The position numbers and the translations under genes were made by a program. 64,000 bases of DNA. Origin: Glacieibacterium arshaanense. Lineage in GTDB: Bacteria; Pseudomonadota; Alphaproteobacteria; Sphingomonadales; Sphingomonadaceae. Below, piece after piece: positions 29,181 through 56,142 of this stretch (positions are counted from its first letter, which is position 1; each line of letters opens with the position of its first letter). The notes under the pieces are model-generated. The model had not been told where the DNA came from, ran no database searches, and saw only the letters and a program-made list of their open reading frames with translations. The stretch covers positions 1-64,000 of the forward strand of contig NZ_SIHO01000004.1 in assembly GCF_004681125.1 (NCBI RefSeq), written 5' to 3'.

Positions 29181-29290
29181 AGGGCCTCCGACGGGCAGGC
29201 CTGAGGCCTGCACCCGATTGAAGAGCGCCAAACAAATGGGTGCAGGCCTCAATCTTGAACAAGAGCTGGCCTGCCCGCCGGAGGCCCTAA
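29181..29290. repeat. Palindromic element R7 (pair with enlarged right hairpin)
   Basis: Left unit 29181-29220 (inner hairpin GGCC-TGA-GGCC). The centre GATTGAAGAGCGC...AACAAAT is shared with R13 and R14. Right unit 29238-29288, whose stem GCAGGCC/GGCCTGC holds a 19-nt loop that itself contains CTTG-AA-CAAG. It overlaps the mmcB stop codon (CTA at 29287-29289). Confidence 0.85.
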
Positions 29291-29742
29291 AGAAGCTCTC
29301 CCATACCCAAAAGCCGGCTCGCCGCCCGCCGCGCAAACCGCAGCGTTTCCGATTTGCGGCGCGCGGCGTTCATCGGCACCCAGGCGGCATCGCGCAGCGC
29401 GGCGGCTTCCCAGCGATCGGCCACGAGCAGCCCGGCACGGTTGGGCTGGAACCAGGGTTCATCAAAGGGTGCTTGCGGGAAACCGAACGGCACCGCCCAG
29501 AAGTAGCGGTCGCAGTGGTCGAGATATTCGGGCCATTTGAGGTCGCCGCGCAGGTCGGCCATCGATACCTTGATTTCGACGAGCGTTATGCGGCCGTCGG
29601 CGCCGAGGCCGAGCACGTCGGCGCGGCGGTTGTTGTTCAGCGGGACTTCGGTGAGCGTCGCGATATTGTGGTCGTAGAACCAGCGCGCGACGCCGCGCGC
29701 GACGTCTTGCGCGGTGAGAATGTCGGGGGGAGTGCTCGCCAT
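29287..29742 (-). CDS. mmcB: MmcB family DNA-repair protein
   Basis: A 151-residue protein matching MmcB (mitomycin C sensitivity, Caulobacter). It starts with an N-terminal ILTAQDVARGVARWFYDHNI, then RRADVLGLGADGRITLVEIKVSMADLRGDLKW, which has the PD-(D/E)xK-like nuclease core (D, ExK), and DHCDRYFWAVPFGFP. It is likely a nuclease-fold DNA-damage protein of the LexA regulon in relatives; no LexA site was identified here. The TAG stop is formed at the R7 edge. Confidence 0.9.
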   Translation of the reverse strand: MASTPPDILTAQDVARGVARWFYDHNIATLTEVPLNNNRRADVLGLGADGRITLVEIKVSMADLRGDLKWPEYLDHCDRYFWAVPFGFPQAPFDEPWFQPNRAGLLVADRWEAAALRDAAWVPMNAARRKSETLRFARRAASRLLGMGELL

Positions 29743-29828
29743 GCGCGCGAGAATAGTAGAACAAGTGGGGAACGGGAAGGGGCTTCACCCGCTCGACGGG
29801 TTACGTCATAGCAAAGCCACAAGCCTGT

Positions 29829-29872
29829 GCCCCGGCGCAGGCCGGGGCGGGTTCGGCGGGAGGTTCCCGCCG
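29829..29872 (-). terminator. Tandem hairpins downstream of the cell-wall hydrolase gene
   Basis: Two perfect 8-bp stems in a row: GCCCCGGC/GCCGGGGC at 29829-29848 and CGGCGGGA/TCCCGCCG at 29854-29872. They lie just after the stop of the leftward hydrolase gene. No T-run follows, so they may be an mRNA-stabilising or factor-assisted end rather than a classic terminator. Confidence 0.5.
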
Positions 29873-29879
29873 GCTGCGC

Positions 29880-30569
29880 CTACTTATAAAATACGTGGTT
29901 CCCGATGCGGCTGACCAGACGGCGGTCATTCCAGTTGGGGGCAACGCGCGTTGCGTGGAATGCCATCGCCTTGGGTGCAACGTCACGGTAGCCATCGGTC
30001 AGCGCGATCAGCGCGATAGCCTGGGCGACTTTCCAGTCGTTCGAGCCGTACGCCGGCGACCGGTTATGGGCGAAAGTGAACTGGCCGGGCTGGTAGACCA
30101 CGCCGCAGATGCTGTTGGCGTAGCGGCCCGATTCGACGCGGTTCTTGATGACCTGCGCAACGGCGAGCTGGCCTTCGAGCGGTTCACCGCGCGACTCGAA
30201 ATAGACTGCAGTGGCGAGGCACTTGAAGTCTTCGGTCATTTCGATCGGCACTTCGTCGGCACCGGTGGTGGCGACGAGCTTCGACAAATGTGCCGGCTGC
30301 GGCTCATCGTCGATACGAAAGTGCGGTTCGTTGTTGGCGGAAACGATTGAATCGGATTCGAGCGGCACGGCGGCGGCGCGGAGCTGCGCGGTGCGGGCGT
30401 CGATGGCGGCGAGATCCTCGGCAGTGAGGTCGGTGCCAGCTACATCGGCATAAACGGTATCATTGGTATCACCGACCGCATTGATCTGCGGTTCGGACGG
30501 CATCTGGCCTGCGGCGAGAAGCGCAAAGCTGGCAAGAGCCAAGGCGAGTACACGGCGTTTAATGGTCAT
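29880..30569 (-). CDS. SleB-type cell wall hydrolase
   Basis: A 229-residue exported hydrolase with a signal peptide (about 1-21, LALASFALLAAGQ). A linker of about 90 residues precedes the Hydrolase_2 (SleB) domain, which starts at DFKCLATAVYFESRGEPLEGQLAVAQVIKNRV, with the catalytic Glu in YFESRGE, then GVVYQPGQFTF and THYHA-like MAFHATRVAPNW. It probably cleaves glycan strands during growth or division. Monocistronic, with a hairpin pair behind it. Confidence 0.9.
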   Translation of the reverse strand: MTIKRRVLALALASFALLAAGQMPSEPQINAVGDTNDTVYADVAGTDLTAEDLAAIDARTAQLRAAAVPLESDSIVSANNEPHFRIDDEPQPAHLSKLVATTGADEVPIEMTEDFKCLATAVYFESRGEPLEGQLAVAQVIKNRVESGRYANSICGVVYQPGQFTFAHNRSPAYGSNDWKVAQAIALIALTDGYRDVAPKAMAFHATRVAPNWNDRRLVSRIGNHVFYK

Positions 30570-30756
30570 TCACTCAACTGCTACCCACGTCCGGTTTTCT
30601 GTCCGCGTTGGTTTCGGCATCAATCCCGATGTTGTGGGAGCCGAAACGCGCTGGGCTGAACAAAGTCCGGGCCGCTTGGGTTAAACTTGCTGGTCCCGCC
30701 CAAGGGGCCAGCATGCGTTAATGTGCAGGTGAGCGACCGCGCCGTTAAGGTCAAGT
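30570..30756. other. Upstream spacer of the cell-wall hydrolase gene
   Basis: No gene seen. The only structure is an inverted GTTTCGGC / GCCGAAAC pair about 20 bp apart (near 30611-30650), which on the minus strand lies in the hydrolase leader or promoter region. Confidence 0.35.
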
Positions 30757-31080
30757 TCAGGCGATCGGTTCGTCGATGAACCGTGCAGGATCGGGGGTGT
30801 CCAGTTCAATTACCCATAGATCGGGGTCGAATCCACGCTGGCGTTTGACCCAGTCGGCGACGGCTTCACCCTGTGCCGCGATGCGCCAGCGGTAGTCGCC
30901 GTCGGCCGCGATGGCGCGCTGGAACGCGGTCTCGGCACCGTCGCGGGCGCGGTGAATCAGGATGACCGCCCCGCTGATATCGTCGCCGCGGTGGAGCACG
31001 GTGGCAAAATCGCCGGCCGCTGACACCCGTCGCAGCAACGCGCTGGTCCAGGTCTTGGCGGTAAGGCGCGGCCCGGTCAT
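30757..31080 (-). CDS. DUF1491 family protein
   Basis: A 107-residue alphaproteobacterial protein of unknown role. The family pattern is seen in PRLTAKTWTSALLRRVSAAGDFATVLHRGDDISGAVIL near the start and RWRIAAQGEAVADWVKRQRGFDPDLWVIEL near the end. Small and soluble, with a mixed alpha/beta look. It lies 21 bp after ptsN on the same strand, so it is the last gene of the hpf-ptsN-DUF1491 unit. Confidence 0.9.
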   Translation of the reverse strand: MTGPRLTAKTWTSALLRRVSAAGDFATVLHRGDDISGAVILIHRARDGAETAFQRAIAADGDYRWRIAAQGEAVADWVKRQRGFDPDLWVIELDTPDPARFIDEPIA

Positions 31081-31101
31081 CGTCTGCGGCCGCGTGTCGC
31101 G

Positions 31102-31569
31102 TCAGGCCGCGCGGTCTTGGACCGCGACACCGACGCCGAGCAGCTTCGCCAGTGCCTCGGCCGACGGCGCTGCGCGCAGCTTTTCGACCAGTGCCGCATC
31201 GCGCAACAGCCGGCTGATGCGCGCCAGCGCCTTGAGCGGCTCGGCCCCGGCTTCAATCGGCGCGAGCAGTAGCACGACAAGGTCGACAGGCGCACCGTCG
31301 AGCGCGCCATAGTCGACGGGTGTGGCAAGCGTCGCCAGCACCGCGACCATGTGATCGAGCCCGGCAAGGCGCGCGTGCGGAATCGCGATGCCGCCGCCAA
31401 AGCCTGTAGTGCCGAGCAGTTCGCGCGCATCCACCGCTTCGGCAATGCGCGCCGCATCGATGGCGCAAAACTGCGCGGCGTGGCTGGCCAATGTCGCCAG
31501 CAGTGCCGGCTTGTCCGCCGCCGACACGCCGTGGAGAACCGCCCCGGGGGGCAGCAAATCGGTAATCAT
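31102..31569 (-). CDS. ptsN: Nitrogen-type PTS regulatory protein IIA (PtsN)
   Basis: A 155-residue EIIA-Ntr. The phospho-acceptor is His65 in GIAIPHARLAGLDHM. Other conserved parts are ELLGTTGFGGG before it and LLLAPIEAGAEPLKALARISRLLRD after it. It regulates potassium and nitrogen/carbon balance rather than transporting sugar. ATG at 31569 yields MITDLLPPGAVL, the standard start. It follows hpf by 28 bp, a linkage found throughout proteobacteria. Confidence 0.94.
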   Translation of the reverse strand: MITDLLPPGAVLHGVSAADKPALLATLASHAAQFCAIDAARIAEAVDARELLGTTGFGGGIAIPHARLAGLDHMVAVLATLATPVDYGALDGAPVDLVVLLLAPIEAGAEPLKALARISRLLRDAALVEKLRAAPSAEALAKLLGVGVAVQDRAA

Positions 31570-31597
31570 GTTAAATCCGCTTCGGGTATTCTTGGTG

Positions 31598-32188
31598 TCA
31601 GGCGCGTGGTTCGACCCAGCCGATCGTGCCGTCTTCACGGCGATAGACCATGTTGTGCGCGCCGGTACGGCTGTTCTTGAACATCAGCGCGCCGGTGTTG
31701 CGCAGATCGAGCATCATCACCGCATCCGAAACGCTGGCATCGGGAATATCGACGCGGGTTTCGGCAATGACAACAGGGTTGTCCGCCACATCGACTTCGG
31801 CCTCTTCGGGCGCAGCCTGGAGGATGTGATAATCGGCATTGTCGAGCGCTGCGGCCGCGGCGCGCTCACCATTGCGGTCAGCGCCGGGACCGTGGCGATC
31901 CTTGAGCCGACGCATGTAGCGGCGCAGCTGCTTTTCGATGCGGTCGGCGGCGGCATCGAACGCGATATGCGCGTCGGGCGCGCGCGCCGAACCCTTCAGA
32001 ATCAGGTCGGACATGACGTGCATGACGATATCGACGTTGAACGCGCTCTGCGGGGCATTCGACAGCGTCACATGCGCCCCGACGGCGCGCGAAAAATACT
32101 TGTCGGCAATCGCGTTCAATCGGGTCGAGACATGCGTGCGGAACGCTGCCCCGGTATCGACCTGATGGCCTGAGACCCGGATTTCCAT
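31598..32188 (-). CDS. hpf: Ribosome hibernation factor HPF, long form
   Basis: A 196-residue two-domain protein. The N-terminal S30AE domain (MEIRVSGHQVDTGAAFRTHVSTRLNAIADKYF) blocks the mRNA/tRNA channel. After a linker, the C-terminal dimerisation domain (SVSDAVMMLDLRNTGALMFKNSRTGAHNMVYRREDGTIGWVEP) joins two ribosomes into 100S particles in stationary phase. ATG at 32188 has AAGGAG a few bases upstream. The gene heads the hpf-ptsN unit. Confidence 0.95.
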   Translation of the reverse strand: MEIRVSGHQVDTGAAFRTHVSTRLNAIADKYFSRAVGAHVTLSNAPQSAFNVDIVMHVMSDLILKGSARAPDAHIAFDAAADRIEKQLRRYMRRLKDRHGPGADRNGERAAAAALDNADYHILQAAPEEAEVDVADNPVVIAETRVDIPDASVSDAVMMLDLRNTGALMFKNSRTGAHNMVYRREDGTIGWVEPRA

Positions 32189-32301
32189 TGCGTTCTCCTT
32201 CACGGTTGCGGCGGAGACTCGCGGGTCACCGCCAAGGCTGAAAACATCATGCGCCCATCAAAGGGCAAATCCTAGTTATACTACGGCATGAGCACTTAAA
32301 T

Positions 32302-32967
32302 TCATGCTAGCCACACCGGGTCTTTCAACTTGGTGACGAAAGCCGCGTGTCGCTCGAGCTCTTCGGGCGAAGCGTGGTGTGCCCGCGCCGGAACGAGCGT
32401 CCGCTCGACAGCCGCCGCTTCGGGCTCGGCGGTTGCGGCCAGATCGAAGCCAATCTGCCGGCCACCGGTCAGTTCGACATAGACCCGCGCCAGCAATTCG
32501 GCATCGAGCAGCGCGCCATGCTTGGTGCGCGCCGACAGGTCGATCCCGTAGCGGTTGCACAGCGCATCGAGCGTGTGCTTGGCGCCCGGATGCTTCTTGC
32601 GGCTGATCTCAAGCGTGTCGATGGCGCGCGTCGGCGGTAGTTCCTTCATGCCGGCGCGGCGCAGCTCGAAATTGAGGAATGCCATGTCGAACTGGGCATT
32701 GTGCGCGACCAGCGGCGAATCCTCGATGAACGCCAGGAAGTCGTCGATCACCGCCTCGAAAATCGGCTGGCCGGTCAGGAATGCCGTCGACAGGCCGTGG
32801 ACGTTTTCGGCGTCCTTGGGCATCGAACGGCATGGATCGATATAGGTGTGATAGGTGCGGCCGGTGGGCACGCGGTCGATCAGTTCGAGCGCGCCGATTT
32901 CGACAATGCGGTGGCCGTCGCCGGGCATGATGCCAGTGGTTTCGGTGTCAAAAACAATCTCACGCAA
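32302..32967 (-). CDS. dnaQ: DNA polymerase III epsilon subunit (proofreading exonuclease)
   Basis: A 221-residue DEDDh 3'-5' exonuclease. ExoI motif IVFDTETTGI (metal Asp and Glu), ExoII VAHNAQFDMAFLN, ExoIII with KHGALLDAELLARVYVEL (His and Asp). Downstream of the exonuclease, the alpha-binding tail is short. It edits replication errors as part of the core polymerase. TTG at 32967 is chosen because it directly precedes REIVFDTETTG; no ATG fits. It is last in the leftward ppsR-maf-aroE-DUF5360-coaE-dnaQ cluster. Confidence 0.94.
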   Translation of the reverse strand: MREIVFDTETTGIMPGDGHRIVEIGALELIDRVPTGRTYHTYIDPCRSMPKDAENVHGLSTAFLTGQPIFEAVIDDFLAFIEDSPLVAHNAQFDMAFLNFELRRAGMKELPPTRAIDTLEISRKKHPGAKHTLDALCNRYGIDLSARTKHGALLDAELLARVYVELTGGRQIGFDLAATAEPEAAAVERTLVPARAHHASPEELERHAAFVTKLKDPVWLA

Positions 32968-32990
32968 GGCGCATCTTCTACTGGAGGCAA

Positions 32991-33596
32991 CTATAGACCC
33001 CGATATCGGCGCTTGGGGTCCTGTAGGCAAGAGACCAGGCGCTTCACAGCGCGCCATGTGGCAATTTTTCCATCGCCGGTCGGGATTACGACATCGGCAC
33101 GCGCGCGCTTTTCGGCATCGGGCAGCTGGGTCTTGATAATCGCGTCGAACTTTTCGGGCGTCATCCCCGGCCGTGCCAGCACGCGTTCGCGCTGCACCTC
33201 ATACGGCGCCGAGACCACCACCGTCAGATCGCAGCCCTTCCAGCCGCTGCCTTCGAACAGCAGCGGAATGTCGAGCACCACCATCGGCTTGCGGCGATTC
33301 CGGCGCCGGAACGCCAGCTGCGCCTGCCCGACCAGCGGGTGAATGATGCGCTCGAGCGTCTTCAACGCTTCCTTGTTGCCGAACACCGCCGCACCAAGCT
33401 TGGCGCGGTCGAGCCCCTGGTCCGACGTCGTGCCCGGAAACGCCGCCTCAATCAGCGGCAGTGCCGCACCCCCGCGCGCCTGCAGCTTGTGCACCTGCGC
33501 ATCGGCATCGAACACCGGCACGCCTAGCCGCCGGAACATTGCCGCCACGGTGGATTTGCCCATGCCGATCGAGCCGGTGAGACCGATGATAATCAT
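32991..33596 (-). CDS. coaE: Dephospho-CoA kinase (CoaE)
   Basis: Last step of coenzyme A synthesis, adding the 3'-phosphate to dephospho-CoA. 201 residues. P-loop [17 protein letters not shown], then [26 protein letters not shown] and the lid region with [15 protein letters not shown] at 33596 overlaps the stop of the membrane-protein gene by 4 bp (ATGA). Confidence 0.95.
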
Positions 33597-34000
33597 GCAA
33601 GCTCCCTGATGAGACGCGGCAACCAGTACAGCGGCAGCGCCATGAGCAACAGATTTGGAATCCACCATGAAACGTCGAAGTCGCCGGTCAAGGCCCAAAA
33701 GCTGACCGCCATAAGTCCGGCGCAGCCGGTGAGTGCCAGCGACACGATCGCCAGCCCACGCCAGCGAGCGTCACCGCGCGCCGCCAGTCGCACGCTCGCC
33801 AGTCCGGTCAGCGCGAACAACATATCCAGCGGCGCGAACGACCAGTTCCATGCATCGACAAGTGGCGTGCCATAGCCACGATACATGCTCGACGCCGGCA
33901 AGGTGATGAAACCGGTCAGCGCTAGGGCCGCTACGGACCAATACGCCAACATCGTGATATCAACCACGGCAAGCGACAGGCGCAGGCCAGACGGCATCAT
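33593..34000 (-). CDS. DUF5360 (YvaD-like) small membrane protein
   Basis: A 135-residue protein with four predicted membrane segments (about 10-30, 55-72, 82-103, 112-130). The segments [23 protein letters not shown] and [28 protein letters not shown] match the DUF5360/YvaD pattern known from Bacillus. Function unknown. It is inserted between aroE and coaE with 4-bp overlaps on both sides, so it is translated with them. Confidence 0.78.
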
Positions 34001-34803
34001 TTGGTCAGCAGCGCCCGAAGTTCGGCGTCATGCATGCGCGGCGCTTCAGCCCCATAGAACAGCGCAAATGCCGCCGCTGCCTGGCCAATCAGCATAGACA
34101 GCCCGTCAATCGTCGCAAGTCCGCGGGCGCGCGCCGCCTTTAGCAATGGCGTATCGAGCGGCGCATAGACACAATCGAAGACGCAGGCATCGGGCGAGAG
34201 TGGCGCGAGATCGATATCGAGCGGCGGTTGGCCGGTCATGCCGAGGCTGGTGGCGTTGATCAGCAGCGCCGCCGCCGGCAGAGTGGTGCCGGGCACCTGC
34301 ACCGTGCCGACGGTCTGCATTTCGGCCAGCAACGCCGTCGCGCGGTCAGCGCTGCGGTTGACGAGTGTTACCGGTCCGCCGAGTTCCCGTGCCACCGCCA
34401 AAGCGGCGCGCGCTGCACCGCCGGCACCCAGTATCACCACCGGCCGGCCCGCAAGCGCCAGATGCGCAATCGGCCCGGCAATGCCAGCAACATCGGTGTT
34501 GTAGCCGACCAGTCCGTCGGCCGTGGCGTGCACGGTGTTGACCGCACCCACCGCCGCCGCGCCGGCATCGATCCGGTCGAGATGCGCCATCACCGCGACC
34601 TTGTGCGGAATCGTGACATTGACGCCGCGAAGGCCGAGCGCGGGCAGCGCGCGGATTGCGGTGCCGAGATTGTCGGGGTGGACGGGGAAGCGGCTATAGT
34701 CGCCGTCGAGTCCGAGTTTGGCCAGCCAGAAGCGGTGGATCCTCGGCGATTTCGAGTGCGCGACGGGCCAGCCGATAACGCCGGCTGAGGGGGGAAGAAT
34801 CAT
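33997..34803 (-). CDS. aroE: Shikimate dehydrogenase (AroE)
   Basis: Reduces 3-dehydroshikimate with NADPH in the aromatic pathway. 268 residues. N-terminal substrate site GVIGWPVAHSKSPRIHRFW, catalytic Lys in GVNVTIPHKVAVM, and Asp in GYNTDVAGI. The NADP site is ILGAGGAARAALAVA with NRSADRATAL. C-terminal DGLSMLIGQAAAAFALF. Upstream, between it and maf, lies element R8, which could affect read-through from ppsR-maf. Confidence 0.95.
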   Translation of the reverse strand: MILPPSAGVIGWPVAHSKSPRIHRFWLAKLGLDGDYSRFPVHPDNLGTAIRALPALGLRGVNVTIPHKVAVMAHLDRIDAGAAAVGAVNTVHATADGLVGYNTDVAGIAGPIAHLALAGRPVVILGAGGAARAALAVARELGGPVTLVNRSADRATALLAEMQTVGTVQVPGTTLPAAALLINATSLGMTGQPPLDIDLAPLSPDACVFDCVYAPLDTPLLKAARARGLATIDGLSMLIGQAAAAFALFYGAEAPRMHDAELRALLTK

Positions 34804-34806
34804 TCA

Positions 34807-34939
34807 GGGCCTCCGGCGGGCAGGGCCTTGGGCCCTGCACCCGAATATTGGGTTGGTGCCGCATAGGCCAGTGCCGGGTCATGATGCACGGGCAAAATCC
34901 GGGTGCAGGGCCCAAGGCCCTGCCCGCCGGAGGCCCTTT
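34807..34939. repeat. Palindromic element R8 (pair inside a same-strand gene cluster)
   Basis: Left unit 34807-34845 with inner hairpin GGGCC-TTG-GGCCC; right unit 34901-34939 with GGGCCC-AA-GGCCC. The centre is about 55 bp. Unlike most copies it lies between two codirectional genes (maf upstream, aroE downstream, both leftward), 3 bp from the aroE start codon and 9 bp from the maf stop. Confidence 0.85.
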
Positions 34940-34948
34940 GAACACTTC

Positions 34949-35581
34949 TCATATCGCCAACACGCCGCGCGTGCGGAGGAAATCGAGCACCGCGAGTAGC
35001 GGCAGGCCCTGGATGGTGAAATGGTCACCGGCAACGCGCGTGAACAGTTGCGCGCCGAGGGCTTCGATGCGGTAGGCGCCGACGCAGTGGATGACGTGGT
35101 CGGCTTCGGCGTCGAGGTAGCCTTCTACAAACGCGTCGGACAGCGGGCGCATGGTCAGACGGGCGGTGTCGATCTTGCGCCAGACAGCTTCGCCGTTCTG
35201 GGCGATAACGGCGGCGGAGACGAGCTGGTGTTGTTTTCCCATTAAGCTGCGCAGTTGCGCGGCAGCACGGTCGCGGGTCCCGGGTTTGTCGAGGATTTGC
35301 CCGTCGGCGGTGACGAGGATCTGGTCGGCGCCGAGGACGAGCGCAGTTGGGAATCGCCGTGACAGTTTGACCGCCTTGGTTTCGGCAAGCGCATCAGCAA
35401 TGTCGCGTGGCGGTGCGCCGCGCGCGAGCAGCGCATCACGGATACCCTCCTCATCAACGTTGGGCGACACGGCCTCGAACGCCACTCCGGCAGCGCTCAA
35501 CATCGCGCGCCGCGCCGAAGACTGAGAAGCCAGAATCAATGTGTCCAGCTTCAAGCTGGCCGCCGGAGGCTCTTGAATCAC
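34949..35581 (-). CDS. Maf family nucleotide pyrophosphatase (second copy)
   Basis: A 210-residue Maf protein. The nucleotide-binding loop is ILASQSSARRAML, the catalytic acidic region is ALVLGADQILV, and the C-terminus has GAYRIEALGAQLFTRVAGDHFTIQGLPLLAVLDFLR, the YceF-like ending, so it probably acts on 7-methyl-GTP or another nucleotide than the first Maf. The ATG overlaps the ppsR stop (ATGA). The first 11 residues (IQEPPAASLKL) are extra to the family and are encoded by a degenerate repeat unit, R9. Confidence 0.92.
   Translation of the reverse strand: MIQEPPAASLKLDTLILASQSSARRAMLSAAGVAFEAVSPNVDEEGIRDALLARGAPPRDIADALAETKAVKLSRRFPTALVLGADQILVTADGQILDKPGTRDRAAAQLRSLMGKQHQLVSAAVIAQNGEAVWRKIDTARLTMRPLSDAFVEGYLDAEADHVIHCVGAYRIEALGAQLFTRVAGDHFTIQGLPLLAVLDFLRTRGVLAI
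35545..35573. repeat. Palindromic element R9 (degenerate unit inside maf coding sequence)
   Basis: Read on the minus strand it is GAGCCTCCGGCGGCCAGC then TTGAAGCTGG: the family left edge, with an inner palindrome CCAGCTT-GAAGCTGG in place of GGCAGG-CCTGCA. It follows the ppsR stop directly and supplies the N-terminal codons of the second maf. Confidence 0.6.
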
Positions 35582-36420
35582 TTCGCGCCTTCTTGGTCTT
35601 CCCGCGCCTGAACCAGATTAATGATCGCAGCGGCGGTTTCCTCGATCGAGCGGCGGGTGACATCGATGACGGGAATATCGTGGTCGGCGAACAGCCGGCG
35701 CGCGAAGGCGACTTCGGCGGCGACGACATCATTGTCGACATAGTCGGTATCAGGGGTTTGGCCCATCGTCAGCAGGCGGTTGCGGCGGACGGCGACGAGG
35801 CGGTCGGTCGAGGTGGTGAGGCCGACGAGCAGCGGCTTAGTCAGCCGGAACAGTTCGGGCGACGGCGGTGACTGTGTAACGATCGGCATGTTGGCGGTCT
35901 TGTAGCCGCGGTTGGCGAGGTAGATTGAGGTGGGGGTTTTGGACGATCGCGACACGCCGATGAGCACGATATCGGCTTCATTCCAGTCGTCCTGTCCGGC
36001 GCCATCATCGTGCGCCATCGTGTAGTTGATGGCATCGACACGGCGGAAATAGGCGGCGTCCATGATGTGCTGACGGCCTGGGCGGGTGGTGGCGGTCTGG
36101 CCGAGCAGCAGCGACAGTGCGTTGATCGTCGGGTCGAGCGCCGAGACGAACGGCAGTCCCAACGCGATGCAGCGCGATTCGAGCAGGTTGCGAACGCCGC
36201 CGTTGACCAAGGTGTAGAGCACCAGCCCGGGGCGCTTGGCGACTTCGTCGAGGACGCGTTCGAGATGGCCTTCGGAGCGCACCATCGGCCAGAAATGCTT
36301 GATCGCCTCGACCCCCTCGAAGCGCGCCAGCCCGGCCTTGGCGACCGACTCGAGCGTTTCGCCGGTCGAGTCGGAGACCAGGTGCAGGTGCAGCCGCGTC
36401 GTCAAATCGGGAGTCTCCAA
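35578..36420 (-). CDS. ppsR: PEP synthase regulatory kinase/pyrophosphorylase (PpsR/DUF299)
   Basis: A 280-residue bifunctional enzyme that phosphorylates and dephosphorylates PEP synthase or PPDK. Key parts: LHLVSDSTGETLESVAKA, AALDPTIN-like VSALDPTINAL, RRVDAINYTMAHDDG, P-loop GVSRSSKTPTSIYLANRG, and TTSTDRLVAVRRNRL. No ATG fits the family start; TTG at 36420 (giving METPDLTTRLHLHL) is the best choice and TTG at 36405 is possible. It lies beside the putative origin with hemE divergent on the other side, as in other alphaproteobacteria. Confidence 0.9.
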   Translation of the reverse strand: METPDLTTRLHLHLVSDSTGETLESVAKAGLARFEGVEAIKHFWPMVRSEGHLERVLDEVAKRPGLVLYTLVNGGVRNLLESRCIALGLPFVSALDPTINALSLLLGQTATTRPGRQHIMDAAYFRRVDAINYTMAHDDGAGQDDWNEADIVLIGVSRSSKTPTSIYLANRGYKTANMPIVTQSPPSPELFRLTKPLLVGLTTSTDRLVAVRRNRLLTMGQTPDTDYVDNDVVAAEVAFARRLFADHDIPVIDVTRRSIEETAAAIINLVQAREDQEGAK

Positions 36421-36440
36421 AAATGGCCGCCGCACAAGGC

Positions 36441-36449
36441 TGTGGATAA
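36441..36449 (-). promoter_or_regulatory. DnaA box (perfect TTATCCACA)
   Basis: TGTGGATAA on the plus strand, the exact complement of TTATCCACA. Confidence 0.8.
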
Positions 36450-36519
36450 GCACTGCGTGACGACACTGGCGCCGGTTGTGCAACGCCGGGCTTGCCAACG
36501 TCAACGCAGCGACGGCGAT

Positions 36520-36528
36520 TTATCCACA
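36520..36528 (+). promoter_or_regulatory. DnaA box (perfect TTATCCACA)
   Basis: Exact consensus on the plus strand, 79 bp from the first perfect box and in opposite orientation. Confidence 0.8.
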
Positions 36529-36776
36529 GCGCTTCAACAGGTGAAAGAATCCACAGAAGCGCCTGTGGACAACGGGGACAGTTTTCGCGACTCGCCGAGT
36601 CTGCGCGATTTGAACGACGCTTTCACTGTGGGTTGAATCGGGCATGGGACAAGACAGGGCTTTGTCCACAGCACTACAACCTTCACTAGAATCTATTTCT
36701 AGAATCAGATTGAAGTGGTGCGGTGGTGACTCGGCTCGGGGCTTGACGGCGGGCAGCGTGTGCGGTGAGGAAAGCT

Positions 36777-37808
36777 ATGAACCAGAATCCGTCTCCCCTG
36801 CTTGCCGTGCTATCTGGCGAACGCATCGATCCACCGCCGGTGTGGCTGATGCGCCAGGCGGGTCGCTATCTGCCCGAATACCGGGCGTTGCGCGCCGAAA
36901 AGGGCGGATTCCTCAATCTCGTTTATGACAGCGAGGCGGCCGCCGAAATTACCCTGCAGCCGGTCAGGCGCTTCGGTGTCGATGCGGCAATCCTGTTTTC
37001 GGACATTCTGATCGTCCCGCATGCGATGGGTCAGGCACTGAGCTTCGGCGTCGGTGAAGGGCCCAAGCTCGAACCGGCGCTGCTCGATGGCGGCTTCGAA
37101 GCACTGACGCCGGCACCGCGCCATTTCGCGCCGATCTATGAGACCGTGCGCCGCGTACGTGCCGCGCTGTCGCCCGAAACCGCGCTGATCGGTTTTGCCG
37201 GCAGCCCGTGGACGGTCGCAACCTATATGGTCGCCGGCCACGGCAGCAAGGATCAGGAAGCCGCGCGGCGGCTGGCCTATCGCGACCCGATGGCGTTCCG
37301 GTTGCTGATCGACCGCATCGTCGCGGTCACTGTCGATTATCTGTCGGGGCAGATTGAAGCTGGCGCGCAGGTCGTTCAGTTGTTCGACAGCTGGTCGGGC
37401 AGCCTCGCACCCGCCGAATTCGAACGCTGGGTCATCGCCCCGACTGCCGATATCGTCGGCCGGCTGATGGTCCGCCACCCGCAAATCCCGGTCATCGGCT
37501 TCCCCAAGGGCGCCGGCGCCAAGCTCGGCGCCTATGCCGCGCAAACAGGCGTTGATGCCGTCGGGCTCGACGAATCCGTCGATCCGGCATGGGCGGACGC
37601 GATCCTGCCGCCAGGGCTGCCGGTGCAGGGCAATATTGATCCACTGGCACTGATCGCCGGCGGTCGTGCGCTTGCTGAAAATATCGCACGGATCCGCGCG
37701 GCGTTCGACAAGCGTCCGCATATCCTCAATCTCGGTCATGGGATTTTGCAGGATACGCCGATTGCGCATGTCGAGCAGCTGCTCGCGCAGGTGCGCGCGA
37801 ATGCTTGA
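36777..37808 (+). CDS. hemE: Uroporphyrinogen decarboxylase (HemE)
   Basis: Decarboxylates uroporphyrinogen III to coproporphyrinogen III in heme synthesis. 343 residues. N-terminal signature PPVWLMRQAGRYLPEYRALR with substrate Arg residues, FSDILIVPHAMGQ with catalytic Asp, GFAGSPWTVATYMVAG, and GFPKGAG / GNIDPLAL in the C-terminal half. ATG at 36777 has AGGAAAG just upstream. hemJ follows, so both heme genes are probably co-transcribed across element R10. Confidence 0.97.
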   Translation: MNQNPSPLLAVLSGERIDPPPVWLMRQAGRYLPEYRALRAEKGGFLNLVYDSEAAAEITLQPVRRFGVDAAILFSDILIVPHAMGQALSFGVGEGPKLEPALLDGGFEALTPAPRHFAPIYETVRRVRAALSPETALIGFAGSPWTVATYMVAGHGSKDQEAARRLAYRDPMAFRLLIDRIVAVTVDYLSGQIEAGAQVVQLFDSWSGSLAPAEFERWVIAPTADIVGRLMVRHPQIPVIGFPKGAGAKLGAYAAQTGVDAVGLDESVDPAWADAILPPGLPVQGNIDPLALIAGGRALAENIARIRAAFDKRPHILNLGHGILQDTPIAHVEQLLAQVRANA

Positions 37809-37809
37809 A

Positions 37810-37860
37810 GGGCCTCCGGCGGGCAGGCCAGTCACTGACAAAGACCGGGCCTGCACCCGA
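37810..37860. repeat. Palindromic element R10 (single unit with enlarged loop)
   Basis: GGGCCTCCGGCGGGCAGGCC, then a 17-nt insert of AGTCACTGACAAAGACC, then GGGCCTGCACCCGA. The stem GGCAGGCC/GGGCCTGCAC still pairs around the insert. It fills the hemE-hemJ gap: one base after the hemE TGA, and its last bases contribute the A of the hemJ ATG. Confidence 0.75.
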
Positions 37861-38300
37861 TGATTGGCTGGTTGGGCGGCGCGTACCTATGGGTTAAGGC
37901 GTTTCACGTTATCTTCGTGATTTTCTGGATGGCGGGGCTGTTCATCCTGCCGCGCTATCTGGTGCATCATACCGCGACTGTGCCGGGATCGCCTGAAGAC
38001 GCCGAATGGATCAAGCGCGAAATGCTGTTGCGCCGGATGATCCTCAACCCCGCCAGCATCCTGACCTGGGCACTGGGGCTCTGCCTCGCCGGCAGTCTGG
38101 GGTTCGACTATCCGTGGCTGTGGGCGAAGTTTGGGTTCGTCGTGCTGCTCACCGGCTATGACCATTGGGCCGTCGCAACGTCAAAAAAACTGGCGCGCGG
38201 ACTACGACCCTATGCCGAACGCCGGCTGCGCATGCTCAACGAAGTGCCGGCGCTGTTGATCATCGCCATCGTTATCATGGTGGTGGTCAAGCCAAGCTAA
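37860..38300 (+). CDS. hemJ: Protoporphyrinogen oxidase HemJ
   Basis: A 146-residue four-helix membrane enzyme oxidising protoporphyrinogen IX to protoporphyrin IX. Conserved parts are WVKAFHVIFVIFWMAGLFILPRY with heme-ligand His, HHTATVPGSPEDAEWI, RRMILNPASILTWALGL, and a C-terminal LRMLNEVPALLIIAIVIMVVVKP. It carries out the heme step two after HemE and lies next to it. The ATG sits on the edge of element R10, and no Shine-Dalgarno other than repeat sequence precedes it. Confidence 0.93.
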   Translation: MIGWLGGAYLWVKAFHVIFVIFWMAGLFILPRYLVHHTATVPGSPEDAEWIKREMLLRRMILNPASILTWALGLCLAGSLGFDYPWLWAKFGFVVLLTGYDHWAVATSKKLARGLRPYAERRLRMLNEVPALLIIAIVIMVVVKPS

Positions 38301-38379
38301 TTTAATTTGTCACAAGTTTCCGATTGACGGCGCGCATGCTGGCACTACGAATCAAGCAGTTGTTAAAATGGGGGAAAAT

Positions 38380-39564
38380 ATGAAGATTCAGTTTACAATA
38401 GCTGCTGTTGCGGTTGCCTTGCTTGCGTCCGCAGCGCCGGCGCTTGCCGTGAAGCATTACAAGATCGTCGACCTCGGAATTCCCGCTGGAAGCCAGAGCT
38501 CGGTGGCACGCGCCATCAGCAGCAGTGGCGTCATTGCGGGCGAAGCCGGCGCGGGACAGGGCGCCAATACCGGTTACCGGATGGATGGTGGCTTGACGGT
38601 GTTGCCGACACTAAGCGGCGGCACCAATTTTGTGACGCGCGGCGTCAATGACGCCGGTGTCGTCGCGGCGACGGTTCAGGGTGTCGGTCTTGACGATCGC
38701 GCCGTGCTGGCGACCACCGGCGGGGTCACCCAGCTCGGCAACGTTGCCGGCTTTGCAGCCGCGGGCGCGCTCGATGTCAACAACAGCGGCATCGCTGTCG
38801 GCTATGTGCTGGACAGTGGTTCCAATGGCGGCATCGAAGGCAATTTGCCGCTAATGTCAAATTTCGTCGGAAGTCAGAAGGCTACGGTTTGGACGGGTGG
38901 TACCGGAACCACGCTGTCGGGCGTGGCTGGATCAGTCAACAGCATTGCAGTTGCGCTCAATGATGCCGGTCAGGTTGCCGGCATGTACAGGACCAGCACC
39001 AATCGCACTCAAGGCGTGATCTGGAACGGTGGAGTCGCTTCGGCACTGGCCAATCCTGTCGGCCAGTCGCAGGCGCGCATTCGTGCGATCAGCGAAGCGG
39101 GTTGGGTCGCCGGCCAAACAAGTGGTACGCTGGGCTTTCACGGTACGGTCTGGTCGCCGACGGCGTCTTATCTGCTGCCGATGTTCACCAACCCCAACAA
39201 CGAAGTCGATAACGCTCGCGGGATCAACAGTGCGGGTACGGTTGTCGGTTTTGCGCAGCAGTTTGATGATAATGGCGATCAGATTGCGCAGATCCACACG
39301 CTGTGGGATTTCGATGGTACCAGCTACACCGCCTATGATTTGACGTCGTTGATCGTCAATTTCACTGGTTGGAGCTTTGCTGCCGGCGCGCCGCAGGCCA
39401 TCAACGATAGCGGTGATATCGTCGGCTTCGGGCTGGCGCCCGATGGATTCGAGCACGGTTATCTGCTGACCGCGGTTCCCGAACCAGCAAGCTGGGCGAT
39501 GATGATTGGCGGCTTCGGCATGATCGGTGGTGCGCTCCGCCGCCGCCGCGTTGCTGTTGCCTGA
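38380..39564 (+). CDS. Secreted HAF-repeat protein with PEPxxWA-CTERM
   Basis: A 394-residue exported protein. The signal peptide ends at APALAV (about residue 23). The body is built from repeats of the HAF type, each with a INDAG/VNDAG-like core: ISSSGVIAGEAG, GVNDAGVVAATVQG, VNNSGIAVGYVL, LNDAGQVAGMY, SEAGWVAGQTS, INSAGTVVGFAQ and INDSGDIVGFGL, forming a predicted beta-propeller or solenoid on the surface. C-terminal sorting signal VPEPASWAMMIGGFG plus RRRR. ATG at 38380 with GGGGGA just upstream; TTGTCAC occurs in the upstream region, as for the PEP-CTERM gene at 13312. Confidence 0.87.
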   Translation: MKIQFTIAAVAVALLASAAPALAVKHYKIVDLGIPAGSQSSVARAISSSGVIAGEAGAGQGANTGYRMDGGLTVLPTLSGGTNFVTRGVNDAGVVAATVQGVGLDDRAVLATTGGVTQLGNVAGFAAAGALDVNNSGIAVGYVLDSGSNGGIEGNLPLMSNFVGSQKATVWTGGTGTTLSGVAGSVNSIAVALNDAGQVAGMYRTSTNRTQGVIWNGGVASALANPVGQSQARIRAISEAGWVAGQTSGTLGFHGTVWSPTASYLLPMFTNPNNEVDNARGINSAGTVVGFAQQFDDNGDQIAQIHTLWDFDGTSYTAYDLTSLIVNFTGWSFAAGAPQAINDSGDIVGFGLAPDGFEHGYLLTAVPEPASWAMMIGGFGMIGGALRRRRVAVA

Positions 39565-39570
39565 TTGAAT

Positions 39571-39646
39571 GGGTGCGGGGCCCCTGTGCCCCGCACCCAC
39601 CCAAACAAATGGGTGCAGGGGCAAGCCCCTGCCCGTCGGAGGCCCT
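39571..39646. repeat. Palindromic element R11 (variant pair)
   Basis: The left part 39571-39598 is an atypical hairpin GGGTGCGGGGCCCC...CCCCGCACCC without the GGGCCTCC edge. The right unit 39611-39646 is normal (inner hairpin GGGGC-AA-GCCCC), with one change in the outer arm (CCCGTCGGAGG). It lies between the HAF-protein gene and rho. Confidence 0.75.
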
Positions 39647-39768
39647 TGACGCCTCCCATCTTCGCGCCTATCGCGACCGTAGCGCCGCCATCCTGGCGGC
39701 TCGCTCCCCCGGCCATCGCTATTCCCCATAGACGAAAGCGCCCGGGCATCTGACGAGACCAGACCCAC

Positions 39769-41025
39769 ATGCATCTTAGCGATTTGAAGCGCAAAACTCC
39801 CGCCGAACTGGTGGCCATGGCCGAAGAACTCGGCGTCGAAAACGCTTCCACCCTGCGCAAGCAGGACATTTTATTCTCGATTCTCAAGGCGTTGGCCGAT
39901 AACGGCACGCTTATCATGGGCAGCGGCACGATCGAGGTCATGCCCGACGGCTTCGGCTTCCTGCGTTCGGCGGAATCGAACTATCTCGCCGGCCCCGACG
40001 ACATTTACGTGGCGCCCGTGCAGGTCCGCAAATTCGGCATGCGCACCGGCGACACCATCGAAGGCGAGATCCGCGCGCCCAAGGACGGCGAGCGTTATTT
40101 CGCGCTGACCAAGCTGATTGCGATCAACTTCGACGACCCTGATGTTGTCCGCCACCGCGTCAATTTCGACAACCTGACGCCGCTGTACCCGGATGAAAAG
40201 CTGCGCCTCGACACGCTTGATCCGACGATCAAGGACAAGAGCGCGCGCGTCATCGACATCGTCAGCCCGCAGGGCAAGGGCCAGCGCGCGCTGATCGTGG
40301 CGCCGCCGCGCGTCGGCAAGACCGTGCTGCTGCAGAACATCGCCAAGGCGATCAGCCACAATCACCCCGAAGTTTACCTGATAGTGCTGCTGATCGACGA
40401 GCGCCCCGAAGAAGTCACCGACATGCAGCGTTCGGTGGTCGGCGAAGTCATCAGTTCGACGTTCGACGAACCCGCGCAGCGCCACGTCCAGGTCGCCGAA
40501 ATGGTCATCGAAAAGGCCAAGCGGCTCGTCGAGCACAAGCGCGACGTGGTGATCCTGCTCGACTCAATCACCCGCCTGGCACGCGCCTACAACACCGTGG
40601 TGCCGAGTTCGGGCAAGGTGCTGACCGGCGGTGTCGACGCCAACGCACTTCAGCGCCCGAAGCGCTTCTTCGGCGCGGCGCGCAACATCGAAGAAGGCGG
40701 TTCGCTTTCGATTATCGCCACCGCGCTGATCGACACCGGCAGCCGCATGGATGAAGTCATCTTCGAAGAGTTCAAGGGCACCGGTAACAGCGAAATCGTC
40801 CTCGACCGCAAGATCGCCGACAAGCGCGTCTTCCCGGCGATCGATATCGGCAAGTCGGGCACCCGCAAGGAAGAATTGCTCGTCGACAAGAACGTGCTGT
40901 CGAAGATGTGGGTGCTGCGCCGCATACTGATGCAGATGGGCACGATCGATGCGATGGAGTTCCTGCTCGACAAGATGAAGGACTCGAAGAGCAACGAAGA
41001 CTTTTATGATGCGATGAATCACTGA
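39769..41025 (+). CDS. rho: Transcription termination factor Rho
   Basis: A 418-residue hexameric RNA helicase. N-terminal RNA-binding domain with [20 protein letters not shown] and the primary site GFGFLRS; Walker [23 protein letters not shown]-loop and R-loop [21 protein letters not shown]; Walker [18 protein letters not shown]-terminal [31 protein letters not shown]. About 120 bp of leader with no gene precedes it, where Rho often regulates itself. It follows the hemE-hemJ group as in other alphaproteobacteria. Confidence 0.97.
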
Positions 41026-41334
41026 CGAGGCGCGGCGCGCACCAAGGTGAAATTTGCGCTTCGCTAATTTCGACTTGGGGCGTGACTCGCGCCCGTCCGG
41101 CCGGCGAGGCGGGCGGCGCACTTGCCGCCCGAACTCGGCCGACGGCGTGGCTTGGCCACGCTCTTCCTTACTTCCTACCTGCCTTCTCACCCCATTCCGG
41201 CAAACACCCCGCGTACCCGCGGCGCGGCTTTGCCGCGCCCCAAACCCACCCCGCCAAATCAACATTGCATCGCCGCACATAACCCCTAGGATACCCCCAT
41301 AAACCCGCACAAAGCGGCCACTAAGGGGTACCCA
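41026..41334. other. Hairpin-rich spacer between rho and the M20 peptidases
   Basis: A 309-bp spacer without a gene. Three stem-loops are visible: 41049-41071 (GAAATT..AATTTC with inner GCG/CGC), 41110-41131 (CGGGCGGC/GCCGCCCG) and 41221-41239 (GGCGCGGC-TTT-GCCGCGCC). None has a strong U-tract. A good Shine-Dalgarno AAGGGG precedes the next gene. It may hold a promoter and termination signals or an unrecognised small RNA. Confidence 0.45.
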
Positions 41335-42744
41335 ATGTCACCAGTCGCGCGCGCCTTCGGCGCCGTCATCGCCACGTTGCTCGCCGCCCAAACCCAGGCG
41401 CAAACGTTGCGCCCCGACCAGACCCAGTTCCGCGCGCTCTACAAGGAACTCGTCGAAACCAACACGACGCTGTCGGCCGGCAGCTGCACGCTCGCGGCGC
41501 AGCGCATGGCGGCGCATCTCAAGACCGCCGGCTTCAAGGACAGCGAACTCAACGTCTTCAGCGTGCCGACCAACCCCAAGGAAGGCGGCCTCGTCGCGGT
41601 GCTGCCGGGCAGCGACCCCAAGGCCGGCGCGATCCTGCTGCTCGCCCACCTTGATGTCGTCGAGGCCAACCGCGCCGACTGGACGCGCGACCCGTTCGTG
41701 CTGGTCGAGGAGAATGGCTGGTTCTATGCGCGCGGCGCGTCCGACGACAAGGCGCAGGCGGCGATCTTTACCGACACGATGGCGCGCCTCAAGGCCGGCA
41801 AGCCGCCGCACCGCACGCTCAAGTTGGCGCTGACCTGCGGCGAGGAAACCGGCGGCGCGTTCAACGGCGCCGAGTGGCTGGTCAAGAACCACAAGGACTG
41901 GATCGCCGCCGATTTCGCGTTGAACGAAGGCAGCGTCGGCATCCGCAACAAGGAAGGCAAGCATGTCTCGCTCGGCATGCAGGCTGGCGAAAAAGTCTAT
42001 CAGGACTTCCGCATCGAGGCGACCAATCCCGGTGGACACAGCAGCCGGCCGCGCCCCGACAACGCCATTTACGAACTCGCCGCGGCGCTGGTGCGGATCG
42101 GCCAATATGAATTTCCGGTGCAGTTCAACGACACGACGCGCGCCTATTTCACCGAGACCGCCAAGCTGACCGGCGGCGAAACCGGCGCTGCGATGACGGC
42201 GCTGCTCGCCAACCCCAACGACGCGGCGGCCAATGCCATCGTGTCGAAGGACCCGACTTTCCATTCGATGCTGCGCACCACCTGCGTTGCGACTGAGCTC
42301 GATGGCGGTCACGCCAAGAACGCGCTGCCGCAGCGCGCCGGCGCCAACATCAATTGCCGGATGTTCCCCGGCGACCCGATCGAGAACGTCCGCGCACAGC
42401 TGGTCAAGGCTGCTGCCGATGCGTCGATGACGGTCAAGCCGACCGGCGAAATCAGCCCGACGCCGCCGCCACCGCCGCTGACGCCGTTGGTCTATGGCAC
42501 CGCCAAGACGATCGCTGCCAAGCACTTCCCCGGCGTGCCATTGCTGCCTGCGATGTCGACCGGCGCCACCGATGGACGCTTCCTCAACGCCGATGGCATC
42601 CCGACCTACGGCGTGCCGGGGCGGTTTTCCGACCCCGACGGCAACGGCGTCCACGGCCTTAACGAACGCAAGTCGGTCGCTGGCCTCTATGCCGAGCGCG
42701 ACTATTTGTATGACCTGATCGTCGCTTATGCGGCGGCGCCGTGA
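41335..42744 (+). CDS. Secreted M20 family metallopeptidase (first of three)
   Basis: A 469-residue exported zinc peptidase with a signal peptide ending near AAQTQAQ (residue 23). M20 landmarks are metal ligands His105 and Asp107 in LLAHLDVVE, bridging Asp in GASDDKAQ (about 137), catalytic and metal Glu170-Glu171 in CGEET, then the dimerisation lid NPGGHSSRP, NINCRMFPGD and final His in GVHGLNERK. A Pro-rich stretch (TPPPPPLTP, about residue 378) links to the second half. It likely releases amino acids from peptides in the periplasm. It heads a tight cluster of three related genes. Confidence 0.92.
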   Translation: MSPVARAFGAVIATLLAAQTQAQTLRPDQTQFRALYKELVETNTTLSAGSCTLAAQRMAAHLKTAGFKDSELNVFSVPTNPKEGGLVAVLPGSDPKAGAILLLAHLDVVEANRADWTRDPFVLVEENGWFYARGASDDKAQAAIFTDTMARLKAGKPPHRTLKLALTCGEETGGAFNGAEWLVKNHKDWIAADFALNEGSVGIRNKEGKHVSLGMQAGEKVYQDFRIEATNPGGHSSRPRPDNAIYELAAALVRIGQYEFPVQFNDTTRAYFTETAKLTGGETGAAMTALLANPNDAAANAIVSKDPTFHSMLRTTCVATELDGGHAKNALPQRAGANINCRMFPGDPIENVRAQLVKAAADASMTVKPTGEISPTPPPPPLTPLVYGTAKTIAAKHFPGVPLLPAMSTGATDGRFLNADGIPTYGVPGRFSDPDGNGVHGLNERKSVAGLYAERDYLYDLIVAYAAAP

Positions 42745-42764
42745 TTGGGTTCGAGGGGAACACA

Positions 42765-51817: not shown

Positions 51818-51972
51818 CCGCGAAAGCCGCGCGTCTACAAGCCAGAAGGCAATTATTGCCTATAATATCAATATCTTAGATAAGACTCCGCGCTCTTGTC
51901 GATTGTCTTCGCCCGGATGTTCCACGTGGAACATTTTGACTCATGCAAGGCCGCGGCTGTATCGTCTAGGCC
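51818..51972. promoter_or_regulatory. AT-rich mnmE-mnmG spacer with palindrome and TATAAT
   Basis: A 155-bp gap. It contains the palindrome AGGCAATTATTGCCT at 51847-51861, TATAAT at 51861-51866 (a perfect -10 hexamer), a further AT-rich run to about 51890, and then a parS site. No convincing -35 was found 17 bp upstream, so the promoter call is tentative. The palindrome directly before the -10 could be an operator. Confidence 0.45.
51918..51933. promoter_or_regulatory. parS: parS centromere site 1
   Basis: TGTTCCACGTGGAACA, a perfect 16-bp palindrome, 18 bp with flanking A and T. It is a close variant of the bacterial parS consensus TGTTTCACGTGAAACA and identical to the second copy inside rsmG. 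About 15.4 kb from the putative oriC, which fits ParB loading near the origin. Confidence 0.88.
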
Positions 51973-53817: not shown

Positions 53818-54431
53818 CGACCCGCGACGCGTTTGCAGCAGAATTCAATGTTCCACGTGGAACATTGGCGAAGTTTGATCTCTACGCGGACATGCTGATT
53901 GACTGGCAGTCCCGGATGAATCTTGTCGGGCCGTCGACGCTGCACGATATCTGGGGGCGCCATTTCGCCGATTCAGCGCAGCTTTATACGCTGGGTGCGG
54001 GCCGTTCCGGGCCGTGGATCGACCTTGGCAGCGGGGCCGGCTTTCCGGCGCTGGTGGTTTCGTTGCTTGGCGCACCCAACGTTCACCTCGTTGAATCGAC
54101 AGCGAAAAAGTGCCGCTTCCTTGAAGCGGTGCGCGACGCACTGGGTTTGGAAGGCGTGACGATTCACAACAAGCGCGTCGAAGCACTGGCGCCGATGGCC
54201 GCTGATGTCATCAGTGCGCGCGCGTTGGCGAACCTAAGCCAGCTTTTTGAATGGGGGCTGCGCTTTGCGACGCCGAGAACCCTATGGGTGCTGCCAAAGG
54301 GCGAAGCAGCCAGCGACGAAATTGCCGCGGCGCGTCTAAAGTACAACTTCGACGTTGATCTGGTGCCGAGTCGTTCCGACCCGCGCGGCAAGATCGTGAT
54401 CGCCGGTAGAGTGAGAAGGAAGGCCGTATGA
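53814..54431 (+). CDS. rsmG: 16S rRNA methyltransferase RsmG (GidB)
   Basis: Methylates G527 in 16S rRNA using SAM. 205 residues. N-terminal cap [25 protein letters not shown] motif [47 protein letters not shown]; and VLPKGEA near the end. The coding region contains a parS site that encodes residues NVPRGT near position 12, a known feature of gidB in other bacteria. Its GTG start overlaps mnmG and its end overlaps parA (ATGA). Confidence 0.94.
53849..53864. promoter_or_regulatory. parS: parS centromere site 2 (inside rsmG)
   Basis: TGTTCCACGTGGAACA, identical to site 1. Here the palindrome extends to 22 bp (53846-53867, CAA...TTG). It lies in frame in the rsmG N-terminus and encodes NVPRGT, 1.9 kb from site 1. 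Confidence 0.88.
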
Positions 54432-55222
54432 CGCACAAGCCGACATGCATTGCCATCGCCAACCAGAAGGGCGGGGTGGGCAAGACGACCACGGCGATCA
54501 ACCTGGCGACGGCGCTCGCTGCGGTCGGGCACAGTGTTGTGCTGATCGATCTCGATCCGCAGGGTAACGCCTCTACAGGGCTGGGCATCGACCGGCGCAC
54601 GCGCGAGACCTCGGTCTATGACGTGTTGCTGGGTGATGCGACGCTGGCCGAGGCGATGGTGGCGACGCGCGTGCCGGGACTGTCGGTAGTGCCGTCGACG
54701 GTGGATCTGTCGGGCGCTGAAGTCGAGCTTGTGGGTGTCGAGCAGCGTTTGCACCGCCTCAAGACCGCGATTGACGCCATGCCGGCGCCCGATTTTACGC
54801 TGATTGATTGTCCGCCGTCTCTCGGTATGCTGACGCTCAACGCGTTGGTTGCGGCAAACTCGCTGCTGGTGCCGCTACAGTGCGAATTCTTTGCGCTCGA
54901 GGGGCTTAGCCAACTGCTCGGTACCGTTGAACTGGTGCGGTCAGGCCCGAACCCGAAACTGACGGTTCTCGGGGTCGTATTGACGATGGTCGATCGCCGT
55001 AACCGGCTGTCAGATGCCGTGTCGAAAGACGTGCGCGCCGTGATGGGGACGCAGGTTTTCGAAACGACAATCCCGCGCAATGTGCGGCTGTCCGAAGCGC
55101 CGAGCCACGGCCTGCCGGCGCTGCTCTACGACATGAAATGCTCAGGATCAGTCGCCTATATGGCGCTGGCCCGCGAACTTTTGGCACGGCAAACACCGCC
55201 GGCAACACGCCGCGCGGCCTGA
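54428..55222 (+). CDS. parA: Chromosome partitioning ATPase ParA
   Basis: A 264-residue Walker-type ATPase that moves ParB-parS complexes apart. Deviant Walker A IANQKGGVGKTTTAINLATAL; DLDPQGNASTGLGI; VVPSTVDLSGAEVELV; FTLIDCPPSLGMLTLNALVA; and C-terminal PRNVRLSEAPSHGLPALLYDMKCSGS. The short N-terminus is typical of chromosomal ParA. It is coupled to rsmG upstream and followed by parB 26 bp later. Confidence 0.95.
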   Translation: MTHKPTCIAIANQKGGVGKTTTAINLATALAAVGHSVVLIDLDPQGNASTGLGIDRRTRETSVYDVLLGDATLAEAMVATRVPGLSVVPSTVDLSGAEVELVGVEQRLHRLKTAIDAMPAPDFTLIDCPPSLGMLTLNALVAANSLLVPLQCEFFALEGLSQLLGTVELVRSGPNPKLTVLGVVLTMVDRRNRLSDAVSKDVRAVMGTQVFETTIPRNVRLSEAPSHGLPALLYDMKCSGSVAYMALARELLARQTPPATRRAA

Positions 55223-55248
55223 CGACTTGGACTTGGGGTGGAATTGAA

Positions 55249-56142
55249 ATGATTGAAAAGAAAAGACAATCTGGCCTCGGCCGCGGGCTTTCGGCGCTGC
55301 TCGATGAAGTCAGCAGCAGCACCGCCGACCGCGGCACGACGGCCGCACCGACGCGCTTGCCGCTGGCACAGATCGTCGCCAATCCGCAGCAGCCGCGGCG
55401 CCAGTTCGATGCGGCGGCGATGGATGAACTCGTCGCATCGGTGCGCGAACGCGGGCTGTTGCAGCCAATCCTGGTGCGGCCGCTGCCCGGTGGGCGCTAC
55501 GAAGTCGTCGCCGGCGAACGCCGCTGGCGCGCAGCGCAGGCCGCACAACTCCATGAAGTGCCGGTGGTGGTGCGTGAGCTTGATGACAGCGCGGCGTTCG
55601 AAATCGCGCTGATCGAAAACATCCAGCGCGTCGACCTCAACGCCATCGAAGAAGCTGAAGGCTTCGCGCGGCTGATGCGCGACTTTGGCCACACCCAGGA
55701 AGCACTCGCCAAACTGGTCGGCAAGGCGCGTAGCCATGTCGCCAACCTGCTGCGCCTGCTCGACTTGCCCGAAGCCGTGCGCGCGATGGTCATCGAACGC
55801 AAACTGACCATGGGCCACGCCCGCGCGTTGGTCAGTGCGCCCGACCCGGTCGGCCTCGCCAATCGCATCATCGCCGAAGGCCTGTCCGTGCGCGCCACCG
55901 AAGCGCTTGCCAGCGCCAGCCAGCCCGCTGCCGGCACGGCGCGCGCACCACGCACCAAGTCGCGCGATGCCGAAATGGACGCCAACGTCATTGCGCTCGA
56001 AAATCAATTGGCGGACGCCATTGGCGTGCCGGTGTCGATCACTATGTCGACGGTCGACTCGGGCTCGGTGACGCTGCGCTTTGCCTCGCTCGATCAGCTC
56101 GATCTGATTTCGGCGCGTGTGGCTGGTGAGGCGTTGATTTAG
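55249..56142 (+). CDS. parB: Chromosome partitioning protein ParB (Spo0J)
   Basis: A 297-residue CTPase that spreads from parS. Lys-rich start KKRQSGLGRGLSALLDEV. ParB/Srx nucleotide-binding domain with ANPQQPRRQFD, GLLQPILVRPL and CTP motif VVAGERRWRAAQAAQL. ENIQRVDLNAIEEAEGFARLM; HTH for parS binding in HTQEALAKLVGKARSHVANLLRLLDLP and ERKLTMGHARAL. C-terminal dimerisation part. ATG at 55249 is chosen for MIEKKRQSGLGRGLSALL; a long upstream frame overlaps parA. Element R13 follows 13 bp after the stop. Confidence 0.95.
   Translation: MIEKKRQSGLGRGLSALLDEVSSSTADRGTTAAPTRLPLAQIVANPQQPRRQFDAAAMDELVASVRERGLLQPILVRPLPGGRYEVVAGERRWRAAQAAQLHEVPVVVRELDDSAAFEIALIENIQRVDLNAIEEAEGFARLMRDFGHTQEALAKLVGKARSHVANLLRLLDLPEAVRAMVIERKLTMGHARALVSAPDPVGLANRIIAEGLSVRATEALASASQPAAGTARAPRTKSRDAEMDANVIALENQLADAIGVPVSITMSTVDSGSVTLRFASLDQLDLISARVAGEALI

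Follow-up and report, generated by a model that had tools for sequence, protein, structure and literature searches.

The chromosomal origin of Caulobacter, at hemE and a COG1806 gene (ppsR), has been established experimentally, and the same location has been proposed for Rickettsia and others (PMC1914354). For the Sphingomonadaceae, most DoriC entries are stated to place oriC close to hemE (PMC4741004). The DNA analyzed here (the window) comprises the opening 64 kb of a 174-kb contig, C5, from a draft host genome of 3.26 Mb in 10 contigs. Within it, an intergenic gap (36406..36776, no strand assigned) separates ppsR, encoding a Kinase-PPPase (COG1806/DUF299; 35578..36405, minus strand, probably starting with a TTG at 36405; PF03618, 298 bits), from the divergent hemE gene for uroporphyrinogen decarboxylase (36777..37808, plus strand; TIGR01464, 383 bits). 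This gap shares its flanking genes, DnaA boxes and AT-rich region with Cori of Caulobacter crescentus (PMC1914354) and has the same neighbourhood, with DnaA boxes and a duplex unwinding element (DUE) in the gap, as the Sphingomonadaceae origins represented by Sphingopyxis granuli TFA and the DoriC entries (PMC4741004). The first-pass annotation had placed oriC between ppsR and hemE and had likened the hemE neighbourhood to that of Caulobacter. The likeness holds, with ppsR divergent from and adjoining hemE in 105 of 111 sphingomonad loci (L014-L124), and the placement is supported by a genome-unique cluster of DnaA boxes, by this conserved synteny and by the location of hemE opposite dif in relatives. 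We are highly confident that the gap is the chromosomal oriC of a sphingomonad, presumably opened by DnaA beside hemE. Because the hemE-ppsR interval is already a known origin location in sphingomonads, the origin itself is ordinary, and the call is useful chiefly in annotating and positioning a draft genome. Scanned against Rfam, the 64-kb window returned one tRNA and nothing else.

Two perfect and two one-mismatch DnaA boxes had been reported within 230 bp, and all four were located over exactly that span. The perfect matches, TTATCCACA, lie at 36441..36449 (minus strand) and 36520..36528 (plus strand), and the boxes with one mismatch, TTGTCCACA, at 36564..36572 (minus strand) and 36662..36670 (plus strand), the last adjoining the AT-rich block. 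A weak DnaA-like site with two mismatches, GAATCCACA, occupies 36547..36555 on the plus strand and overlaps a GANTC site. When counting TTRTCCACA across the 3.26-Mb genome, we found 20 occurrences, four of them in the ppsR-hemE gap; the remaining ones are all solitary, with no other two within 30 kb of each other. With one-mismatch sites included, the number of boxes in the window as a whole is unremarkable (6 found, 3.75 expected), and it is the clustering of the boxes, not their number, that exceeds chance. The congeneric loci L015 and L044 match the host at every one of the 36 box positions, whereas only 310 of the 359 columns are identical over the whole gap. Counting against the oriC reading, many relatives have few strong boxes, the median being one exact TTRTCCACA per sphingomonad locus as opposed to the four strong boxes of the host.

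The presumed duplex unwinding element is an AT-rich block at 36670..36718 (no strand assigned), where the best 45-mer, starting at 36670, is 67% AT and two copies of the repeat CTAGAATC, each containing GAATC, begin at 36686 and 36699. The AT-rich repeat block described by the first-pass annotation is real but modest, which counts against the oriC reading: a more AT-rich 50-mer exists elsewhere in the window, and other stretches are equally AT-rich. The 105 relatives likewise have their most AT-rich stretch adjoining hemE, the median distance to the start of that gene being 33 bp. The E. coli oriC 13-mer starts with GATC, and one sequence in the block, GAATCTATTTCTA (36687-36700), resembles this 13-mer with GANTC replacing GATC, a similarity that may be due to chance.

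The gap also holds a dense group of GANTC (CcrM) sites, absent from the first-pass annotation, with seven between 36547 and 36732 (at 36547, 36589, 36597, 36635, 36689, 36702 and 36728) and one more at 36411, near the ppsR start. This is the densest such group in about 1.3 Mb of the host genome (8 in 250 bp from 36547; the next best has 6). Of 339 intergenic regions, the gap has the highest GANTC count. Every one of 105 sphingomonad ppsR-hemE gaps contains at least one GANTC, and density across these loci, which are related so that their counts are not independent, rises from 1.9/kb in the flanks to 15.8/kb in the gaps, a ratio of 8.3. In 81 of the 105 loci a GANTC is located within or at the 40-mer of highest AT content. 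In other families of the class (40 genomes), the gap is GANTC-enriched in most but not all cases, and several AT-rich genomes have little or none. The host encodes a CcrM homologue of 358 aa with N6_N4_Mtase and RAMA domains, which matches NF050803 over its full length at 617 bits, below the curated cut-off of 830, and gcrA is present in the genome. A second N6/N4 methylase of 606 aa (L226; G000:C1:842746-843864), at about 843 kb on contig C1, resembles a mobile-island modification gene, and the stretch sampled around it from 840 kb has a low GC content of 0.569. By eye, we also noticed the short sequence GCGACTCGCC (36585-36605; L016-L018, L045-L047), often accompanied by an inverted second GANTC, which recurs in neighbouring genera just after a strong DnaA box.

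Granting that oriC is real, we put the chances at about even that its GANTC cluster is a by-product of promoters or of base composition with no role in replication control. Such a reading agrees with the situation in Caulobacter, where Cori carries GANTC and CcrM is nonetheless not needed for initiation control, cells lacking it initiating normally (PMC3973325), and with a general GANTC enrichment of intergenic DNA in Alphaproteobacteria (PMC8116508, citing Gonzalez et al. 2014). Against it stands the size of the enrichment: the 70 loci whose flanks were long enough show 14.4 GANTC/kb in the oriC gap, 2.8/kb in other intergenic DNA and 2.6/kb in other divergent regions, an approximately 5-fold difference between the gap and other intergenic DNA of the same loci. 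Base composition was ruled out as the source, both by seven control palindromes of the same composition (five with ratios of 0.64-1.09, one of 1.23, and AGNCT with 3.7, compared with 8.3 for GANTC) and by a dinucleotide model that predicted 141 +/- 9.5 sites where 519 were observed. An echo of DnaA-like boxes was likewise discarded, as only 27 of the 519 sites overlap NNNTCCACA. The bases flanking GANTC differ widely between loci, which suggests that it is the methylase site itself, and not a longer shared sequence, that has been kept.

To place the locus on the chromosome, the relatives serve better than the host draft genome. The host has a weak GC skew, and the cumulative curve of C5 has a local minimum near 28-30 kb, about 7 kb from 36.5 kb, which counts against the gap as origin; the curve rises from this minimum to 86 kb and then falls, and is not V-shaped. 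Because the skew is weak and the genome is split into 10 contigs, it neither proves nor refutes oriC at this site, and host GC skew alone was dropped as an origin locator. From 86000 to 174000 on C5 the skew is negative again, 50 kb past the origin, as would not be expected of a clean replichore; a strand bias of the genes, an inversion or a join made during assembly may account for this. The host has a dif-like site at C1:1053651, and the strand preference of the KOPS-like octamer GGGNAGGG flips there, and not on contigs C3 or C4. One possible contig order would join the left part of C1, C4 and the left part of C5 on one side, and the right part of C1, C3 and the right part of C5 on the other, leaving the origin, at C5:36.6 kb, between arms of approximately 1.64 and 1.59 Mb. 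In seven one-contig sphingomonads, each with a single dif-like site, the hemE-to-dif distance is 0.41, 0.47, 0.47, 0.48, 0.49, 0.52 and 0.55 of the chromosome (six of the seven lengths being rounded to 0.1 Mb). For one of the seven (G038; 3,364,212 bp), skew was sampled end to end at 20 kb in every 57 kb. Its cumulative skew, counted from dif, is at its minimum from 3.098 to 3.135 Mb, and hemE lies at 3.143 Mb; the lowest value follows the 3.078-3.098 Mb sample, directly before the one holding hemE, and the maximum falls at the dif-like site (1.507 Mb), in agreement with the polarity of the KOPS-like octamer.

It is very improbable that the boxes and GANTC sites serve instead to regulate transcription from the divergent hemE and ppsR promoters, with DnaA and GcrA/CcrM as the transcription factors, and that the origin is elsewhere, for example near dnaA on C3. 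In favour of this reading, promoters are targets of GcrA and CcrM in Caulobacter (PMC3973325), and the weak GC skew of C3 turns from slightly negative to positive in the 600-720 kb stretch, where dnaA is located (639.6 kb). Against it, the KOPS-like polarity of C3 is plus on both sides of 600 kb, C3 has solitary DnaA boxes only and no parS, hemE is opposite dif in the relatives, other divergent intergenic regions have just 2.6-3.4 GANTC/kb, and dnaA is not kept near ori in Sphingomonadales (PMC8116508). As an origin marker, dnaA was rejected for its location on C3, far from any box cluster.

Gene direction flips at the gap, from 10 minus-strand genes (29287-36405) to 6 plus-strand genes (36777-44174), bearing out the strand-bias switch that had been noted earlier. 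The same is true of the earlier statement that parA, parB and parS lie 15-20 kb away. Two copies of the perfect palindrome TGTTCCACGTGGAACA, to which no strand is assigned, were found as parS sites at 51918..51933 and, inside the start of gidB, at 53849..53864; both are on C5, and a search allowing up to two mismatches to the consensus gave no further match in the genome. The genes parA (54428..55222, plus strand) and parB (55138..56142, plus strand) are beside them, together with gidA and gidB. Among other features of the contig, the hemE-rho gene run includes a predicted exported protein (38368-39564) with a PEP-CTERM-like C-terminal sorting signal (VPEPASWAMMIGGFGMIGGALRRRR), and two M20-family peptidase genes are adjacent and in tandem at 41335-44174. 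The sequence GGGCAGGG occurs on C5 in plus/minus pairs about 90-110 bp apart (G000:C5 6656/6751, 14987/15094, 34818/34925 and 83189/83280) and is possibly a dispersed inverted repeat.

On the oriC reading, DnaA would occupy the gap at its four strong boxes and at some weaker sites, and would open the AT-rich block beside hemE, where the helicase would be loaded. Two forks would then depart in opposite directions from the hemE-side opening, and ParB at the parS sites, 15-17 kb away, would separate the new origins. Given a GANTC cluster this dense, which CcrM would be expected to methylate, the origin should become hemimethylated on firing. A further reading is that sphingomonad origins, lacking the CtrA motif that contributes to blocking re-initiation in Caulobacter, use the GANTC cluster within and beside the unwinding region to lock out re-initiation in a methylation-dependent manner; the sites would stay hemimethylated until CcrM appears late in the cycle and would meanwhile block a second firing. 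We regard this proposal as speculative and rather unlikely to be correct. Because Caulobacter initiates normally without CcrM, such a lock is live but unproven in sphingomonads, and for GANTC at the sphingomonad oriC a role of methylation more generally is likewise possible but unproven.

Compared with known systems, the GANTC cluster is a modest addition to a known origin location. Several GANTC motifs have been reported in Cori of Caulobacter and its relatives (PMC3973325, citing Shaheen 2009). A survey of methylase-site clusters at origins covers GATC, TTAA, CTCGAG and an archaeal CTAG system and does not list GANTC (PMC4752239), the accessible part of PMC4741004 makes no mention of a GANTC cluster for the Sphingomonadaceae oriC, and our literature search, which covered few subscription journals, found no earlier report of a sphingomonad-wide cluster at the origin. 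Caulobacter Cori differs in having the CtrA motif TTAA-N7-TTAA; the full motif is absent from 36401-36780 in the host, with N6-8 spacing included, and present in only 1 of 105 sphingomonad loci. Its absence fits the finding that CtrA is dispensable in Sphingomonas melonis, where it nevertheless influences replication (PMC8116508). The strict form of the IHF consensus is also absent from the plus strand of 36401-36780. The repABC origins of Alphaproteobacteria are similarly rich in GANTC (PMC6090056), but they depend on RepC and lie inside repC, whereas the host has a chromosomal origin with DnaA boxes. The part of the comparison most worth following is that the cluster is found in every sphingomonad origin examined, with unconserved neighbouring bases and the CtrA motif missing, and this combination makes a once-per-cycle role of CcrM outside Caulobacter directly testable. 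A parallel is E. coli oriC with its clusters of Dam GATC sites (PMC4752239), where the targets of an orphan adenine methylase are likewise crowded together and some lie in the AT-rich block; E. coli couples Dam and GATC to control by SeqA, whereas the host has CcrM and GANTC, and a methylation-dependent lock in sphingomonads would be the GANTC counterpart of the Dam/SeqA system.
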